Source: Candidatus Obscuribacterales bacterium (GTDB lineage Bacteria; Cyanobacteriota; Vampirovibrionia; Obscuribacterales; Obscuribacteraceae). From it: a DNA stretch of 64,000 bases. This document shows, piece after piece, positions 20,255 to 29,697 of this stretch. The position numbers and the translations under genes are program-made. Under the pieces are notes generated by a model. The model saw only the letters and a list, made by a program, of their open reading frames with translations. It was not told the origin of the DNA and ran no database searches. The stretch is from the NCBI GenBank assembly GCA_019744775.1, contig JAIETZ010000001.1, positions 62,001-126,000 of the forward strand, given 5' to 3'. The stretch's first letter is position 1. Every line of letters begins with the position of its first letter.

Positions 20255-22000
20255 CTACCACGAACCACCGCCACCACCACCAAAACCTCCTCCACTAAAT
20301 CCGCCGCCGGAGCTAAAACCTGAATTACCTGAACCGGCACTGCTATAGTCAGACGCCGGACGGGAAGCAAAAGTCTGGTCGGCAACAGACATTGTCTGAC
20401 CTAGACTCTGCACAAAGTAGCCAGTGTCAAAAAATTCGCCGGGTGTATAACCTGGGCCGTACTGATACCAATCGGGCGGCTCTGTAATTAGGTCGCGGAA
20501 TTTATCAGCCCAACGATCTCCAACCCCTAAAACCATGGCAAAAGGCAAAAGTCTGCCGAAAATAGTTGGATCTTCTTTGGCTAAAACTTCAATGCGCTCT
20601 TTTTCAGCCATTGAAACAAAACGCTTAAAAGCTAGACACTCAGCAGTTGCCTTAACTCCGGCACGCGTCCTTGCCGGCATAATATAAGACATTGAAAAGA
20701 CGATCATGGCTGCGACGAAAAAGCCCAATCCCACAGCTATCTGGTTGCTCATTACCCAGGCAAAAAATCCGGCAAAGAAAAACAAGGGCACCATAAACCG
20801 ATAGCCGTTACGAACTTTATCGGGATTCTCCTTAAAATAACCCCGGTGCTCAAGCCCTTCATAGATTTCTTCCCGAATCGACGGTAAGGAAATATAGAAA
20901 TGGTTCTTTAGTCCCGAGAGAGTAGCTACATCCGACGAACCTTGAGAGAACAACGAAGTTAGAAATGTCCTTTCGTAGTCTTTCAGCTCACTCATATCCT
21001 TAGGTGGATTGGGCTTTTTAAATTCATAATCGGTATTGCTAAAGAAAAGCAAATCCACCTTCGGTATTTGCCGTATCGTGTAATAGCCTCGGACAGCGAG
21101 GTCAATAAGCGTAGCTACGACGTCCTTATTGTCACAAACTTCATCCACGACTGTACCCACTTCTGCTGGTGACATTCCTTTTGGTGGATTCCATTCAACA
21201 GAAATGGCTTTCATCGATTCGTCATCACGACCTGTGCCTAACCAGAGGTAATACATCACCAAGAATGTTGCCGAAGGAATGACAAACAGTCCCCACCAAT
21301 CTCTAAGAAACCACACAAGCTCTTGAATTACCGACGGCTTCAATACGCTGCCTTGAGGGAGTCCAACGACGAAAGTCAGTCCTTGAGCTGGTTCAAGTGA
21401 TTGAGCTTCAAACTCAATGTGATCAGCAAATATTTTCGACTCAGCTGGATCTGTTGAACCTAAAGAACCACGAAAGCAGGCAACGTTGATGTTATCGGTG
21501 GAGACTCCTTCCGGAGGAAAGAATGAGGCAGTTGCCGACTCAATGGGAAATGCCCATTCATTGCCTGTGACGTTCCAGTAAATTTCAGGCTTGTTATCAA
21601 AGAAGTTGACTGCTCGGCGAACTGTGTAGTGAATTTTGTAAATATGACGGCCGGTAATCACTTTGTCGACATCACCTATGCGTATGTTCAAGTCGTGATC
21701 TTGGTTGGAAATTTCTCGATTGTATGCGTTACCGGATTCATCGGTAACGCTATCTACTTTTAACTCGACAGAATAATCATTGTCGTTTCGTCTATAGCGA
21801 ATCGGAATCATCCGATAAATGCCGTGCCGCTCGATAGAGCCAAAATCCATCTCGATTGTTTCCAGCACATCCAGAGAACAGTCCTTATGTAAATGAACAA
21901 CTTCATCAAACGATCGAATAACTTCCTGTTGTTCAGCTCGCACCTGAGGCGCCGCCGAAAGCATTGCCAGAAAAACCAGAAACAGAAGCTTTTTAAACAT
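20255..22000 (-). CDS. DUF2207 membrane protein with glycine-rich tail
   Basis: This 581-residue paralogue of the downstream gene has a signal peptide (about 1-22), an exported DUF2207 domain opening with F-D-E-V-V-H-L-H-K-D-C-S-L and holding G-I-Y-R-M-I-P, a transmembrane helix (about 240-260), a cytosolic region, two more hydrophobic helices (about 405-450) and a C-terminus of Gly/Ser/Phe repeats ending G-G-G-S-W. That tail is typical of DUF2207 proteins. It is transcribed divergently from lemA with a 91-base spacer; LemA and DUF2207 genes are commonly neighbours. Confidence 0.85.
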   Translation of the reverse strand: MFKKLLFLVFLAMLSAAPQVRAEQQEVIRSFDEVVHLHKDCSLDVLETIEMDFGSIERHGIYRMIPIRYRRNDNDYSVELKVDSVTDESGNAYNREISNQDHDLNIRIGDVDKVITGRHIYKIHYTVRRAVNFFDNKPEIYWNVTGNEWAFPIESATASFFPPEGVSTDNINVACFRGSLGSTDPAESKIFADHIEFEAQSLEPAQGLTFVVGLPQGSVLKPSVIQELVWFLRDWWGLFVIPSATFLVMYYLWLGTGRDDESMKAISVEWNPPKGMSPAEVGTVVDEVCDNKDVVATLIDLAVRGYYTIRQIPKVDLLFFSNTDYEFKKPNPPKDMSELKDYERTFLTSLFSQGSSDVATLSGLKNHFYISLPSIREEIYEGLEHRGYFKENPDKVRNGYRFMVPLFFFAGFFAWVMSNQIAVGLGFFVAAMIVFSMSYIMPARTRAGVKATAECLAFKRFVSMAEKERIEVLAKEDPTIFGRLLPFAMVLGVGDRWADKFRDLITEPPDWYQYGPGYTPGEFFDTGYFVQSLGQTMSVADQTFASRPASDYSSAGSGNSGFSSGGGFSGGGFGGGGGGSW

Positions 22001-22091
22001 GAACTACTTTGCATCCAATTAAGTTACAGCAAGACCAATATTCCCACGATGAGAGGCATAATAGTAGTTATCATTTGCGGAGATTTTCGGC

Positions 22092-22724
22092 ATGTCATCT
22101 ACCTTAGTAATTTTAGGAATCCTGGCACTTATCGTCGTCATGATGATTTCCATCTACAATCGCCTGGTTTACCTAAGGCAACAAACTAAGGAAGCCTGGT
22201 CAGCAATTGAAACAGAACTGCGCAGACGTTACGACCTTATCCCAAACTTAGTGCAAGTTGTCAGGGAGTATGCAGGGCACGAGCTAGGCACGCTGGAAGA
22301 AGTAATTCGCGCACGCAACAGTGCCGTATCAAATATTGAAAGTCCGGAAAACATCACAAAGAACGAACAGGTTTTAACTGGTGCACTCAAGCAAGTGTTT
22401 GCCTTGAGTGAAGCATATCCGCAATTAAAAGCAAACGAAAACTTTCAACAATTGCAGGAGCAACTGTCCGATACAGAAACAAGACTGTCCCAAGCCAGAC
22501 GCTTCTACAATGCAACTGTGCGCGAACTAAACACGGCAATTGAATCATTTCCATCTGTCCTAATTGCCGGACCAATGGGATTTACAGGCAGACCATATTT
22601 TGGTATCGATAATGCCGACGCCTATGAACCGGTACGCATTGCCGATTTACCCGGCAGCATTCCCAGCACAGGTGAAGGACAGACAATCAAGTTGAAGGAG
22701 ACGCAGAAGGAACTCGATTCGTAA
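22092..22724 (+). CDS. lemA: LemA family protein
   Basis: The 210-residue protein has one N-terminal transmembrane helix (about 4-22). The LemA coiled-helix domain follows, with the signature Y-N-x-L-V-x-L-R-Q-x-x-x-E-A-W-S-A-I-E-x-x-L-x-R-R-Y-D-L-I-P-N-L-V. LemA proteins are widespread envelope proteins with a short exposed N-terminus; their biochemical role is unknown. The divergent DUF2207 genes are its expected neighbours. The last 38 bases overlap the end of the convergent folC gene, an unusually long tail-to-tail overlap. Confidence 0.9.
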   Translation: MSSTLVILGILALIVVMMISIYNRLVYLRQQTKEAWSAIETELRRRYDLIPNLVQVVREYAGHELGTLEEVIRARNSAVSNIESPENITKNEQVLTGALKQVFALSEAYPQLKANENFQQLQEQLSDTETRLSQARRFYNATVRELNTAIESFPSVLIAGPMGFTGRPYFGIDNADAYEPVRIADLPGSIPSTGEGQTIKLKETQKELDS

Positions 22725-24964: not shown

Positions 24965-24980
24965 GTTTATTGTTCTAATC

Positions 24981-25014
24981 AAAGGAGGCAGTTGCTTAAG
25001 CAGCTGCCTCCTTT
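24981..25014. terminator. Strong inverted repeat, likely bidirectional terminator
   Basis: The arms AAAGGAGGCAGTTGCTT and AAGCAGCTGCCTCCTTT pair over 17 positions with one G-T mismatch and effectively a four-base loop. It lies between the + strand small membrane gene (stop 24964) and the minus-strand speD (stop 25038). The tail lacks a long T-run, so termination strength is uncertain. Confidence 0.65.
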
Positions 25015-25037
25015 GTCATTTATACAATGAGGGCTAA

Positions 25038-25430
25038 CTAGCCGCGTTCAATGTAGCGATGCTGGGTAGCTTCAGGTTTCAGTGCATCGACTAACACTGG
25101 CACACACTGGGTTGGATCACAGGTCGTGCCGCACGTGAAGCAATCAAAGAAGACTGTTCTAGACTCTGGATATGTGTGCAAACTTGCATGACTCTCAGCA
25201 AGTACGGCAAAAGCCGTGACACCTTGAGGTTCAAATTTTTGAGACTCTAGTTTCATGACTGTCGCACCACTGGCGACTGCTGCTTTGTTTATCAGCTTGC
25301 GCAGTTGTTCTTCGTCATTAAGGAGATCAGAAGCGCAATTAAACAACGTAAGCAACAGGTGCATGCCTTTTGCTTCGTGTACAACAGATGCGGCAACGGA
25401 TTGCGCAATGACGTTGTTTTCAACTACCAT
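25038..25430 (-). CDS. speD: S-adenosylmethionine decarboxylase proenzyme (SpeH type)
   Basis: The 130-residue proenzyme makes decarboxylated AdoMet, the aminopropyl donor for spermidine synthesis. It self-cleaves to form a pyruvoyl group: the site is E79-S80 in L-A-E-S-H-A-S-L-H-T-Y-P-E. H85 and C100 (F-T-C-G) match the catalytic His and Cys of the Thermotoga enzyme. It is the last gene of a minus-strand unit, two bases after the FemAB-like gene and downstream of a spermidine-synthase-like fusion. That supports a polyamine role for the unit. Confidence 0.93.
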   Translation of the reverse strand: MVVENNVIAQSVAASVVHEAKGMHLLLTLFNCASDLLNDEEQLRKLINKAAVASGATVMKLESQKFEPQGVTAFAVLAESHASLHTYPESRTVFFDCFTCGTTCDPTQCVPVLVDALKPEATQHRYIERG

Positions 25431-25432
25431 CG

Positions 25433-26476
25433 TTAAGTCCTCATTCCTGTTAAGTCAAGTTCGTTTACTGCTCTAACTACCACGTCTGCAAGACGGTCTA
25501 AGAAGTAATGGTCATGGGCACCGACAAATCTAATCGGCTGACCACCAAATTGGCTTTTGAATCGCGAGAATTTGGCATAGCTGTTTCTCGGTGCCATAAA
25601 CTGATCGTAGCCATAAAAATCATAGATAGAACTTCCGGCTGACCTCGCCTCAGTAATTGCCGCCCACTGCAATGCATAACCAGCCATAAGGTTGCGCTTC
25701 TTGTTAGTTATCCCGCCGTACAAATAAGTTGATCTCTGCCCATATGAAACAAGCATTAATGCACCAAGTGTTTCACCTTCATACTCGGCAAAAAGCAATT
25801 TGACCATACCAGTTGCAGCAAGTGAATCCCATAATGTGGTGAAAAACTTAAATGGTTCAATCAAGAATTGATCTCTCGATGCTGCTTCTTGCAAAACGGA
25901 GTAAAAACGGCGAATCGCTTCTGGTGAATTGTCTTCTTTTACGATAACGCCACGGCGATGCGACAAGCCGATGTTATAGCGAGCCTTCGGGTGCATTGCC
26001 TTTAAAATGTCTTCTGCCGCCCCTTCGATGTTTAAGTAAAGAGTTTCTCGCGGCACAAGATCCACAGGAGCGCGACCGAAGTCGGCAAATGTCACCGGTC
26101 CGGGAAATTGAACGCGCGGCTCTATGCGCACGGCCATAGTGTCAAAAGTTCCGGTGCTTGATTCTGCTGCTTTCAGAAGCAAACTCAATCCTTCTTGAGC
26201 ACGGCTTTTATCATTCCAAGGAAGCACAGGACCTTCCGGCGCCATAAAAAAACCCGCACCCTTGTTATGGTGAGACGTGTAAAAAATTGCCCCACCGACA
26301 AGGTCTTCGCCTTCTCTAAGTCCAAGGTGCAAATACCTCATACCTTGACGGCGTTTAAAATCCGCCCAAGCAAGACTCTGCATAAACCCACTTGCCGAGT
26401 TTACGCGCACGAGAGCCTCCCACTGCTGAGCAATGTCCCAAGAAGGGTCTAGATTATTTAGTCTTTCAACCTTCAT
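25433..26476 (-). CDS. FemAB/FemX-like peptidoglycan bridge aminoacyltransferase (GNAT fold)
   Basis: The 347-residue protein resembles FemABX: M-Q-S-L-A-W-A-D-F-K-R-R-Q-G near the start, a first acetyltransferase-like half, K-A-R-Y-N-I-G-L-S-H-R-R-G (the typical K-x-R-Y-x-I central motif) and a second half with G-A-L-M-L-V and Y-L-Y-G-G-I-x-N-K-x-R-N-L-M-A-G-Y-A-L-Q-W. Characterised members transfer amino acids from tRNA to lipid II cross-bridges. It lies between two polyamine genes with gaps of 11 and 2 bases, so its acceptor or donor might be polyamine-related. That is inference only. Confidence 0.85.
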   Translation of the reverse strand: MKVERLNNLDPSWDIAQQWEALVRVNSASGFMQSLAWADFKRRQGMRYLHLGLREGEDLVGGAIFYTSHHNKGAGFFMAPEGPVLPWNDKSRAQEGLSLLLKAAESSTGTFDTMAVRIEPRVQFPGPVTFADFGRAPVDLVPRETLYLNIEGAAEDILKAMHPKARYNIGLSHRRGVIVKEDNSPEAIRRFYSVLQEAASRDQFLIEPFKFFTTLWDSLAATGMVKLLFAEYEGETLGALMLVSYGQRSTYLYGGITNKKRNLMAGYALQWAAITEARSAGSSIYDFYGYDQFMAPRNSYAKFSRFKSQFGGQPIRFVGAHDHYFLDRLADVVVRAVNELDLTGMRT

Positions 26477-26487
26477 TGATGGACCAC

Positions 26488-29073
26488 TCAGCCTCCCATA
26501 CGAGCAAGCAATTTAGTAGCAGCTGCAACTTCTATAGGCATTTGTGTCAGTTGATTGTTAATGCCATCAAGACGGCGTTGTGTTCGCTTAATTGCGTTAT
26601 TTAGACGTCTTGTAGATTCACCTTGATCAAAGTTTTGTCCATTAATAGAAAACGATCCCGGACCAGTATTTACTTGGCTTAAACGCTCATTAAGCATTTG
26701 CAGTCGAGATTGTCCTTCCGCTTGATCTTGGAGCAAGCTATTTCTAGTTGCATCTGATTCTTTGACTAAAGTATTGAGATAACTCACAACCACAGCTTTG
26801 AATTTCTGCGGATATGGCGCTCTTAATTTTGTCTGTCCCTGATCGCTGTACCAACCTTGACCATCCATATAAATGATGGAGCCGTCTGTCCGCTTAAGTA
26901 CGAGGAAATTACCATCAGGCGTCAGCCAAGCGCTATTGAATAATTCCATTGCGCCAGTCACGGGAGCAGGCACTGGTGTCGGTGGTTGATCAGGAGCGGG
27001 AAAATTCTGCGCTGCCTTATTCAATAGAACAACAGCATCTTGAATGTTACCGACTTCGGTATTGGCATCATTTCTGTCCTGGTCGTTGAAACCAAGTTGC
27101 CCACCCATGCCGGCAGCAGACTGTTTTGATTGTCCGGCTGACTGTAGTCCCAGAGACTGCCTGCGAATTTCAGAAGCAATGTGATATGACATATAAGGAT
27201 CAGTAGCTAAGGAAATCATGGGCGTACCAGTTGCTTGATCAACAACTTGAGTGCCATTGCCTGATACTAAAAGGTACGCTTGATCGGTGAGACGCACTGC
27301 AACTTGTCCATTCGGCAAAATGTCGGCATCGTCACCTAAGCGATAATCAGACTGTGCAGACTGCGACGACTCAGCGGCACCTTGCGGCATCTCATTATCA
27401 TTGCCCCAGTTGTAGTTATTCACATAGGTATTTTGATAGTTATAGTTGCGCGCTGGATATTGCGAGCCTTCCTCATCAACTGCTTGTCCGGAATTGGCGC
27501 CAATATTTACGTTGAGAAAACCAGGACCGCCGGCATAGACAGGCACTCCCCAGCCACCCCATCCCCAACCACCCCAGCCCCAGCCTGGTCGTGCCCAACC
27601 GCCCCAAGCACCACCCCAGCGATGACCCCAGTGACCATAATGATCAAAGTGATGATCAAAATCATGATCGCCGTGGAATCCACGATCTCCAGCGCGACCT
27701 GCGCCGGCAGCACGTCCACCACGATCGCCGCCACCATCATGGGCGCCCTTACCATATGCAGTGTCGGGATAAATCAAATTGCCGATGATCACAACCAAAG
27801 TGACAATTGTCAGCACACGCATGCCGACACTAAGAAGAGCAGAATAGTCACCTGTCCATTCAACAAGTCGTTCTTTTAAATAGACAAGTTCCGACACTAA
27901 TTGCTTAGGAAGCTCAGCAGCTCTTGCCAGCAGTCTTTCTACTAGTCCTGCTAAATCAATTGATTCTAAAAAGCGAACCGGTTGAGCCAAGAAGTCGTTA
28001 ATCATGCTGCGCGTCTGAAAGCGCTGTAACGACGGCACTAATCCAACAACACGTTCGTATAAAGCATCAACTTGTAATTCGGCCTTCATTGGCTCGCCAC
28101 CATTAACCGTTAATGCGTAGCGAATCTCAGGCGAAAGAAGATTAGTGCTGTTATCAGCTTCCGGCAATGGCAGACTCAACAAATCAACATTCAATGAATC
28201 CCAAATTGGTCCTGAGAAATCGGTGAGCGTCTCTGCGTTAAATAAATAGTGCAGCAATATATCGCTGTTCTGACAAGCAGGCTTAGACTTGCTTTGATAT
28301 GTCGCCATTTGCTGCGGAAAATGGAAAAGTTTACGCAAATGTTCGACGTCTTTTAATGCTCGACGCGGCTTTGGTAACACCAACTTACGCTCAATTTCTG
28401 CCGGTGTGATTCTCACGGATGAGGCAAGCAAGAATCCCCAGTCGTGTCCGTAGCCTTGTTCAGCAAAGGAAGGCATTACAATTCGATAGGGACTGCAATT
28501 CAATCCACCAACTAACACACTATTGATAATCGACCAGTAAGCAGACGGAGTTGACGAAGGAGAAGCGGCATTGACTGCAAGCACTCCCTCAGTGGTCAAA
28601 AGCTTTTTGAGTTTGCCATACCACTCAACGCTATGGATGCGTGTCTCTGACGCCTTCTGCGGTACAGTCAGATCGCTAATGATCAAATCATAAGTGATAC
28701 CGCTCTCAATTGCTGCGTCAGCAAAATCCCAAGCATCTTGCACATGCACGCGCACACGAAAATCATCAAGGCTTGATCTGTTGAGAAACGCCCAGTCCTT
28801 ACGAGCCAAAGCTAAGACTTCTTTGTCGTAATCAACTAAATCAATTCGCGAAATCGTCTCCGACTTCAACAATTCCCGCGCAGTAAGTCCGTCGCCCCCA
28901 CCAATTACAAGCACGCGCAGATTTCCGTCATGTTTTCTTGATTCGGCTAAGCCAAGTGCAGGTAATGCCAAACATTCGTGATAGATGTGTTCGTCACGAC
29001 TATCAAACTGCAAATCACCATCGATAAAAAATGCCAGGGTGCCATCATTGCGACGTTCAAGTAGGACAGACAT
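26488..29073 (-). CDS. Spermidine-synthase-like domain fused to a membrane anchor and Gly/His/Trp-rich plus unknown C-terminal region
   Basis: The protein (861 residues from ATG 29073) starts with a spermidine-synthase-like methyltransferase fold: D-E-x-I-Y-H-E near the start, the AdoMet loop G-G-G-D-G at 58-62 and I-S-D-L-T-V-P around D134. The second catalytic-pocket Asp of SpeE (D-x-T-D-P) is V137 here. A transmembrane helix follows at about 415-435, then about 75 residues of Gly/His/Asp/Trp low complexity (443-519), then about 340 residues of unrecognised sequence ending in a coiled coil. I chose ATG 29073 because GGGAGG lies just upstream; an ATG 12 bases earlier lacks a site. It heads a unit with femAB-like and speD genes. 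Confidence 0.85.
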   Translation of the reverse strand: MSVLLERRNDGTLAFFIDGDLQFDSRDEHIYHECLALPALGLAESRKHDGNLRVLVIGGGDGLTARELLKSETISRIDLVDYDKEVLALARKDWAFLNRSSLDDFRVRVHVQDAWDFADAAIESGITYDLIISDLTVPQKASETRIHSVEWYGKLKKLLTTEGVLAVNAASPSSTPSAYWSIINSVLVGGLNCSPYRIVMPSFAEQGYGHDWGFLLASSVRITPAEIERKLVLPKPRRALKDVEHLRKLFHFPQQMATYQSKSKPACQNSDILLHYLFNAETLTDFSGPIWDSLNVDLLSLPLPEADNSTNLLSPEIRYALTVNGGEPMKAELQVDALYERVVGLVPSLQRFQTRSMINDFLAQPVRFLESIDLAGLVERLLARAAELPKQLVSELVYLKERLVEWTGDYSALLSVGMRVLTIVTLVVIIGNLIYPDTAYGKGAHDGGGDRGGRAAGAGRAGDRGFHGDHDFDHHFDHYGHWGHRWGGAWGGWARPGWGWGGWGWGGWGVPVYAGGPGFLNVNIGANSGQAVDEEGSQYPARNYNYQNTYVNNYNWGNDNEMPQGAAESSQSAQSDYRLGDDADILPNGQVAVRLTDQAYLLVSGNGTQVVDQATGTPMISLATDPYMSYHIASEIRRQSLGLQSAGQSKQSAAGMGGQLGFNDQDRNDANTEVGNIQDAVVLLNKAAQNFPAPDQPPTPVPAPVTGAMELFNSAWLTPDGNFLVLKRTDGSIIYMDGQGWYSDQGQTKLRAPYPQKFKAVVVSYLNTLVKESDATRNSLLQDQAEGQSRLQMLNERLSQVNTGPGSFSINGQNFDQGESTRRLNNAIKRTQRRLDGINNQLTQMPIEVAAATKLLARMGG

Positions 29074-29160
29074 TGCGCCTCCCATAGGTAAGCCGATGCC
29101 TACATTGTACGTATTTAATGATTGCGAAGAACTGTTGACAGCTCAATTGTACTAAGAGCG

Positions 29161-29697
29161 TTACGATTGAGTTTTCTTCTTGCCGACTTGCACTTTTTTG
29201 TGTGACCGAAATGCAAAGTAGATGATCACGACGACTGAAGATGACCAGACAAAATTGAAAAAACCCTCGTAGAATTCCTTCCACATAAATACCTTGGCAA
29301 TTTCAGGCAAGAAAGAATTTCCATAGTTTTCCGGACTGTATCTCACTACGACTGCTCTTCCCGGTTTGAAAGTCTTGGGAAATTCATACCAGAATTCCGG
29401 ATTAAGTGCCGACATGTGCAGCGGCTCTTGAACGCTGCCGTGATAAAGAGTGCCGTCGGCAGTATAGGTGTAGCCGATAAAGCACGCACGATAAGGAGAT
29501 GCTTCAGGTTGCTCCGTCGCACCCAACTCCTGAGTAAAGGCCGCTTCTATCTGCGTGGATTCGATTACACCTTCAGTACCAGGCCAATCGTGTATTTGCA
29601 GACCCTGCCAAGCCCACCAGGCAGTCGGCGTAAAACAGATGACGAAGATAAACACGCCAACGATGGCAAGAATAATTCGATTCCAATGTCTGCGCAT
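29161..29697 (-). CDS. DUF3592 membrane protein
   Basis: The 178-residue protein has an N-terminal transmembrane helix (about 8-30), an exported domain (about 40-140) with W-P-G-T-E-G-V-I-E-S-T and P-G-x-x-V-V-V-R-Y-x-P-E-N (both typical of DUF3592), and a C-terminal helix (about 148-162) with a Lys-rich end. The function of DUF3592 is unknown. It lies 87 bases upstream of the SpeE-like fusion on the same strand and might be co-transcribed with it. Confidence 0.75.
   Translation of the reverse strand: MRRHWNRIILAIVGVFIFVICFTPTAWWAWQGLQIHDWPGTEGVIESTQIEAAFTQELGATEQPEASPYRACFIGYTYTADGTLYHGSVQEPLHMSALNPEFWYEFPKTFKPGRAVVVRYSPENYGNSFLPEIAKVFMWKEFYEGFFNFVWSSSVVVIIYFAFRSHKKVQVGKKKTQS

Follow-up and report, generated by a model that had tools for sequence, protein, structure and literature searches.

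A membrane-anchored SpeE-like protein kept together with a FemAB-family ligase in Cyanobacteriota: a possible aminopropyltransferase for an envelope acceptor

What does a spermidine-synthase-like enzyme do when it is fused to a membrane helix and to a long C-terminal part of no recognised family, and is followed by genes for a FemAB-family ligase and an AdoMet decarboxylase? The question is raised by a gene on the minus strand of the window, that is, the whole stretch of 64,000 nucleotides that was analysed, which belongs to a genome (G000) of 4.1 Mb in 13 contigs. The open reading frame at 26488-29085 comprises 865 uninterrupted codons, and an alternative start at 29073 (Met5), with which the start of most relatives' proteins aligns, may be the true start of the fused gene.

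Residues 5-245 (28351-29073, minus strand, as are all parts of the gene given below) make up a SpeE/spermidine-synthase-like catalytic domain, which was matched by PF01564 (Spermine_synth) over residues 32-213 with an E-value of 2.5e-24 and by PDB entry 7xif with 1e-27, or 4.7e-17 in Foldseek. The AlphaFold model was reliable for this domain only, and the best PDB matches of the domain were aminopropyltransferases. It is followed by a domain (residues 250-415, 27841-28338) containing stretches such as FLxxPxxFLxxIDLxxLVxxLLxRAxELP, which is conserved in alignment A1 of the SpeE-TM core and was modelled as helical with low confidence (mostly pLDDT <50). A single strongly hydrophobic segment then forms the predicted transmembrane helix (residues 416-438, 27772-27840), the Kyte-Doolittle maximum being 2.44 at about 416-438 and every 19-residue window elsewhere reaching at most 1.6. 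After the helix come a predicted signal-peptidase-I-like site, T-A-Y-G/K (27748-27762), and a Gly/His/Asp/Trp-rich stretch that is variable among relatives (residues 446-530, 27496-27750); residues 446-555 consist of 28% G, 7% H, 8% W and 7% D, compared with 10, 2, 2 and 7% in the whole protein. The C-terminal ectodomain occupies residues 599-865 (26491-27291), and for the last ~270-330 residues no Pfam, NCBIfam or PDB family was matched, with weak coiled-coil matches only. A sequence-only reading had described the same succession of SpeE-like part, single helix, low-complexity stretch and orphan C-terminal domain, and all four elements were borne out; absent from it were the conserved helical domain that precedes the helix and the FemAB and SpeD genes downstream.

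That reading had also named a way in which the fusion could be false, namely that relatives encode the two parts as separate genes and that the fused gene is an assembly join. A join of a SpeE gene with the gene of an unrelated secreted protein would fit the low-complexity junction, at which contigs of other MAGs break, and the finding that genome G003 has a separate gene for the C-terminal domain. However, when 60 genomes were searched the same full-length fusion was found in mid-contig in G008, G010 (with one TAG within the matched frame), G012, G016, G017, G027 and G028, which represent several genera of the window's family, and downstream of its C-terminal end the conserved FemAB gene comes next. 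Compared with a 97-98% identical relative, the ratio of synonymous to non-synonymous codon differences was 100:12 for residues 1-494 and 56:6 for residues 530-865, the frame being kept, and this synonymous excess indicated that the coding is real and that strong purifying selection acts on the sequence before as well as after the junction. The split matches in relatives are accounted for by the many MAG contigs that end inside the Gly/Trp-rich stretch (G001, G002, G023, G035 and others). The named condition was seen in part, in that G003 encodes the C-terminal domain alone and the short relatives are without it. The fusion is nonetheless genuine, and the assembly join was rejected, its probability being practically nil.

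The tail behind the helix ranged from about 50 to about 490 residues in relatives, the short forms ending about 50 residues past the helix, and in photosynthetic Cyanobacteria the place of the Gly-rich stretch is taken by a short Gly/Ser loop, to which a second helix is attached. The ectodomain is a lineage-specific addition of the window's family. The stand-alone version in G003 (L069:5488-6789), a genome in which the search gave no core, has a signal-peptide-like start followed by a Gly-rich stretch (MPNLRRRALVSIALLALTISILPEPADARGGRGGGG...), and because of this start the predicted exported location of the C-terminal part is well founded. This supports the earlier view of a SpeE-like enzyme at the membrane with its C-terminal part outside, an architecture without an assigned role, and the fusion has the appearance of a SpeE core to which an exported Gly-rich protein was added. 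The motif after the helix resembles a signal peptidase site, with A or V at -3, A or G at -1 and then K in 43/43 relatives that could be scored, and it has a parallel in the stand-alone G003 protein; cleavage is not certain, given that the cyanobacterial forms keep the motif yet have a second helix shortly after it. The proposal of a metal- or polymer-binding linker did not hold as a general role, since the stretch varies greatly and several relatives are nearly without His or Trp, and metal binding in particular found no support as a general role because this content is not conserved. Structure prediction of the C-terminal part, which had been suggested as a check, was run with three close sequences as input and gave a model with a mean pLDDT of 50, too low to rely on.

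The active site of the SpeE-like domain was compared with structures of Arabidopsis spermidine synthase, in which Asp131 binds the amine of decarboxylated AdoMet, Asp201 deprotonates the acceptor, Asp204 hydrogen-bonds the substrate amine and an N-terminal hairpin closes and floors the polyamine tunnel (PMC6514230). On the donor side, Asp65 of the GGGDG motif (residues 62-66, 28888-28902), which corresponds to AtSPDS1 Asp131, and the catalytic Asp138, which is equivalent to Asp201 and lies in the sequence D-L-T-V (residues 138-141, 28663-28674), were invariant in A1 and in all core rows. On the acceptor side, the second Asp of DxxD (AtSPDS1 Asp204) was kept in 0/52 cores, its place being taken by V, A, Y, F, C, S, L or W. 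None keeps the VVxQ Gln either, Asn standing there in 52/52 (Asn172 in the window's protein, 28570-28572). In the comparison rows, which comprised canonical and 7TM/MFS-type SpeE, Gln was present in all and D or N stood at the second-Asp site in nearly all. The DExxYHE motif (residues 31-37, 28975-28995) is preceded by only about 26 residues when counted from the start that relatives usually have, as against 57-63 in most canonical SpeE, so that the polyamine-tunnel hairpin is absent from the core. Furthermore, the core has a 5-6 residue insertion after PSF, and its ribose-binding Glu is replaced by Asp and the Gln of YQE by His, as in thermospermine synthase. By these alignments the donor side is preserved and the acceptor side has been opened up and altered consistently. 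The core shares with SpeE (PF01564; TIGR00417, NF002956) the fold, the donor-binding motifs and the catalytic Asp and differs from it in the acceptor site, in the N-terminal hairpin and in scoring below the equivalog cut-offs, with 91 bits against 249.55 for TIGR00417, 211 against 472 for NF002956, 110 against 260 for NF002010 and 156 against 537 for NF002435.

The fused gene is the first of a tight core-FemAB-SpeD operon. The FemAB-family (FemX-like) aminoacyl transferase (25433-26476, minus strand; PF02388, 2.3e-31) lies 11 nt downstream of it, the AdoMet decarboxylase SpeD (25038-25430, minus strand; TIGR03330, 115.7 bits against an equivalog cut-off of 75.65) follows 2 nt after femAB, and a 16-bp hairpin after speD (24980-25015) is the likely operon end. 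All FemAB matches in G000 were pieces of this one gene and no other FemAB was found in the genome, nor were DUF350 and DUF4178. About 75 nt upstream of the fused gene a DUF3592 membrane protein is encoded (29161-29697, minus strand), at a position kept in the same-genus genome G001, and this gene may belong to the operon. Elsewhere in the window, at 20255-22724, there is a divergent pair encoding a DUF2207 membrane protein with a Gly-rich tail and LemA. A second SpeD gene of G000, at L113:5474-7954 on contig C12, stands beside an agmatinase (above cut-off) and a homospermidine/deoxyhypusine-synthase-like gene. From its gene content this appears to be a compact alternative polyamine locus, whose SpeD may act on AdoMet or on another substrate. 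Given that ordinary polyamine synthesis seems to have its own locus there, the operon's SpeD would be free for the core.

A profile (A1) built from the SpeE-TM core was run against 390 genomes of photosynthetic Cyanobacteria, where the core was present without the ectodomain, in the gene order DUF4178-core-FemAB-DUF350 and often with SpeD nearby. The core was present in 31/390 genomes and the operon-type FemAB in 32/390, and 31/31 core genomes carried FemAB, these being related genomes of 12 genera and not 31 independent events. In the 32nd FemAB genome (G479) the core adjoins FemAB but scored under the cut-off. FemAB was adjacent to 42/52 cores, and 7/52 run off a contig end; at L100 FemAB is located elsewhere in the same genome, at L082 a FemAB frame on the same strand overlaps the open frame, and L062 (G034), with the core followed by SpeD and FemAB missing, is the sole relative whose core appears to do without FemAB. 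SpeD is not always adjacent to the core. Window-family relatives without the core were mostly without FemAB too (60 relatives). The core and FemAB are kept together across a deep split. A plasmid search gave partial SpeE-type matches only, all of them over less than 80% of the query.

The 52 cores formed one clade with an SH-aLRT value of 99 in a tree built from 85 SpeE domains (quick method, midpoint root), where the 7TM/MFS-SpdSyn type was their sister group and canonical SpeE lay further off; by this tree the core shares ancestry with the 7TM/MFS-SpdSyn family. Systems that combine a 7TM/MFS-SpdSyn fusion with AdoMetDC and DUF350 were reportedly described by Li et al. in 2019 in Biochem J. 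The best reading of the core-FemAB system is as a variant of these AdoMetDC/SpdSyn-like/DUF350 membrane systems, some of which also include DUF4178, and it shares with them a SpeE-like enzyme within a membrane protein, a proposed aminopropylation of something other than putrescine and a linked SpeD, as well as linked DUF350 and DUF4178 in the cyanobacterial clusters. The two differ in that the known systems have an N-terminal 7TM/MFS domain, whereas the core has a C-terminal helix and a short leader before DExxYHE, a FemAB partner, a lost second Asp and Gln and, in the window's family, a large ectodomain; in G000, moreover, the search for DUF350 and DUF4178 found neither. Related DUF350/DUF4178 operons with a 7TM-SpeE fusion were described by Ravi et al. 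2024 (PMC11237479), who mentioned aminopropylation of other substrates, and operons of this kind also occur in the window's family (L106, L107, L109, L110 and L114), in the order band-7/SHOCT-DUF4178-DUF4178-(DUF350)-7TM-SpeE-amine oxidase and in some with SpeD a few kb off. The PspA-linked GspS-like ATP-grasp/SpeD/DUF350 operons in the same paper likewise place a ligase that forms amide bonds together with DUF350 and genes of polyamine type, the ligase being an ATP-grasp enzyme there and a FemAB-fold enzyme here. In a literature search that covered few subscription papers, no paper naming both an aminopropyltransferase and FemAB was found.

The FemAB profile matched FemX and the S. aureus lipid II:glycine glycyltransferase, and the partner matches known FemABX enzymes (Weissella viridescens FemX, 1NE9/4II9; S. 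aureus FemX, 6SNR) over most of its length. Its F306-K307, equivalent to the essential Phe-Lys pair F304 and K305 of FemX, was invariant in 49 FemAB sequences. In FemX, K36, R211 and Y215 bind UDP-MurNAc-pentapeptide, and R211 is needed for binding (PMC4964394). The K36 position was K or R in 49/49 sequences, whereas the R211 position was Glu in 49/49 (E207 in the window's FemAB) and the Y215 position Phe in 44/49, in a stretch of the alignment without gaps. The partner is further set apart from known FemABX enzymes by being tied to a SpeE-like core in Cyanobacteria. The change of R211 to Glu argues against the standard UDP-MurNAc acceptor for FemAB and makes any substrate shared with the core uncertain. 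Judged by these residues, FemAB is probably a ligase active on a different, perhaps cationic, acceptor.

The best explanation, with chances that we regard as evenly balanced, is that the core is a membrane-anchored, SpeE-derived aminopropyltransferase with a non-polyamine substrate, acting together with FemAB on an envelope acceptor. The SpeD of the operon would make decarboxylated AdoMet, and the cytoplasmic SpeE-like domain, tethered at the inner face of the membrane by its C-terminal helix, would move the aminopropyl group onto an amine of an envelope building block, to which the FemX-like partner would add an amino acid from aminoacyl-tRNA. An envelope component, which may be a peptidoglycan precursor or a lipid-linked one, would thereby receive a cationic aminoacyl group that is aminopropylated. 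The window's family has a secreted Gly-rich protein joined on behind the helix, and the polypeptide would thus also reach the outside, or the ectodomain would be released if signal peptidase cuts. The parts of this explanation differ in strength: aminopropyl chemistry of the core is fairly likely, an envelope acceptor might equally be right or wrong, a peptidoglycan precursor in particular is doubtful, and the order of the aminopropyl and aminoacyl steps is presumed. We propose only tentatively that Cyanobacteriota have an undescribed pathway in which a FemX-like ligase and a membrane aminopropyltransferase put an aminopropylated aminoacyl group on a wall or lipid precursor, with decarboxylated AdoMet used outside polyamine synthesis and, in the window's family, with an exported ectodomain. 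For the SpdSyn-like membrane proteins that occur linked to AdoMetDC and DUF350 no acceptor has been established, and a clade that travels with FemAB and has its acceptor site rebuilt in a fixed way points to the kind of molecule that is modified. The core and FemAB constitute a two-gene system testable in photosynthetic cyanobacteria, and an aminopropylated wall or lipid precursor, if found, would mean that decarboxylated AdoMet has a new use and that the envelope can gain positive charge by a new route.

Because no SpeE homologue other than the fused gene was found in G000, a polyamine role is possible for the core, which would then be an ordinary aminopropyltransferase, membrane-tethered and making spermidine or a longer polyamine, with FemAB as a co-regulated but separate wall enzyme. 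The score of the operon's SpeD above the AdoMetDC equivalog cut-off would suit this, as would the intact donor site and catalytic Asp. We nevertheless consider it unlikely, given scores of 91-211 bits against speE/polyamine aminopropyltransferase cut-offs of 249-537, the loss of the acceptor Asp and Gln in every core, the missing tunnel hairpin, the many relatives that also have SpeE proteins with the usual motifs and the near-perfect co-occurrence with FemAB.

Still less probable is a non-catalytic sensor, in which the SpeE-like domain would bind decarboxylated AdoMet, AdoMet or MTA and signal the metabolic state across the membrane to the ectodomain or to FemAB/DUF350. The fusion to a variable ectodomain and the occurrence of related systems in band-7 and PspA-type contexts are compatible with sensing, but a pure sensor would not need Asp138 and the donor-site residues that are invariant in A1, and the cyanobacterial forms have no ectodomain. 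The sequence-only reading had also considered methyl transfer, and weak matches to general methyltransferase models were obtained; that the core is a methyltransferase or another AdoMet-dependent enzyme that has abandoned aminopropyl transfer is nonetheless improbable, since the Asp of GGGDG that recognises the amine of decarboxylated AdoMet is invariant and SpeD is adjacent or nearby in many members.

The fusion of core and ectodomain was also observed in two genomes assigned to other families, with 7-9% contamination (L081 in G108 and L082 in G099), nested among the window-family sequences, which reflects either transfer or contamination. A record titled Chloroflexi bacterium (L033, SBAT01000123.1) contains the same FemAB and a C-terminal part with 84% identity and is probably a mislabelled bin.
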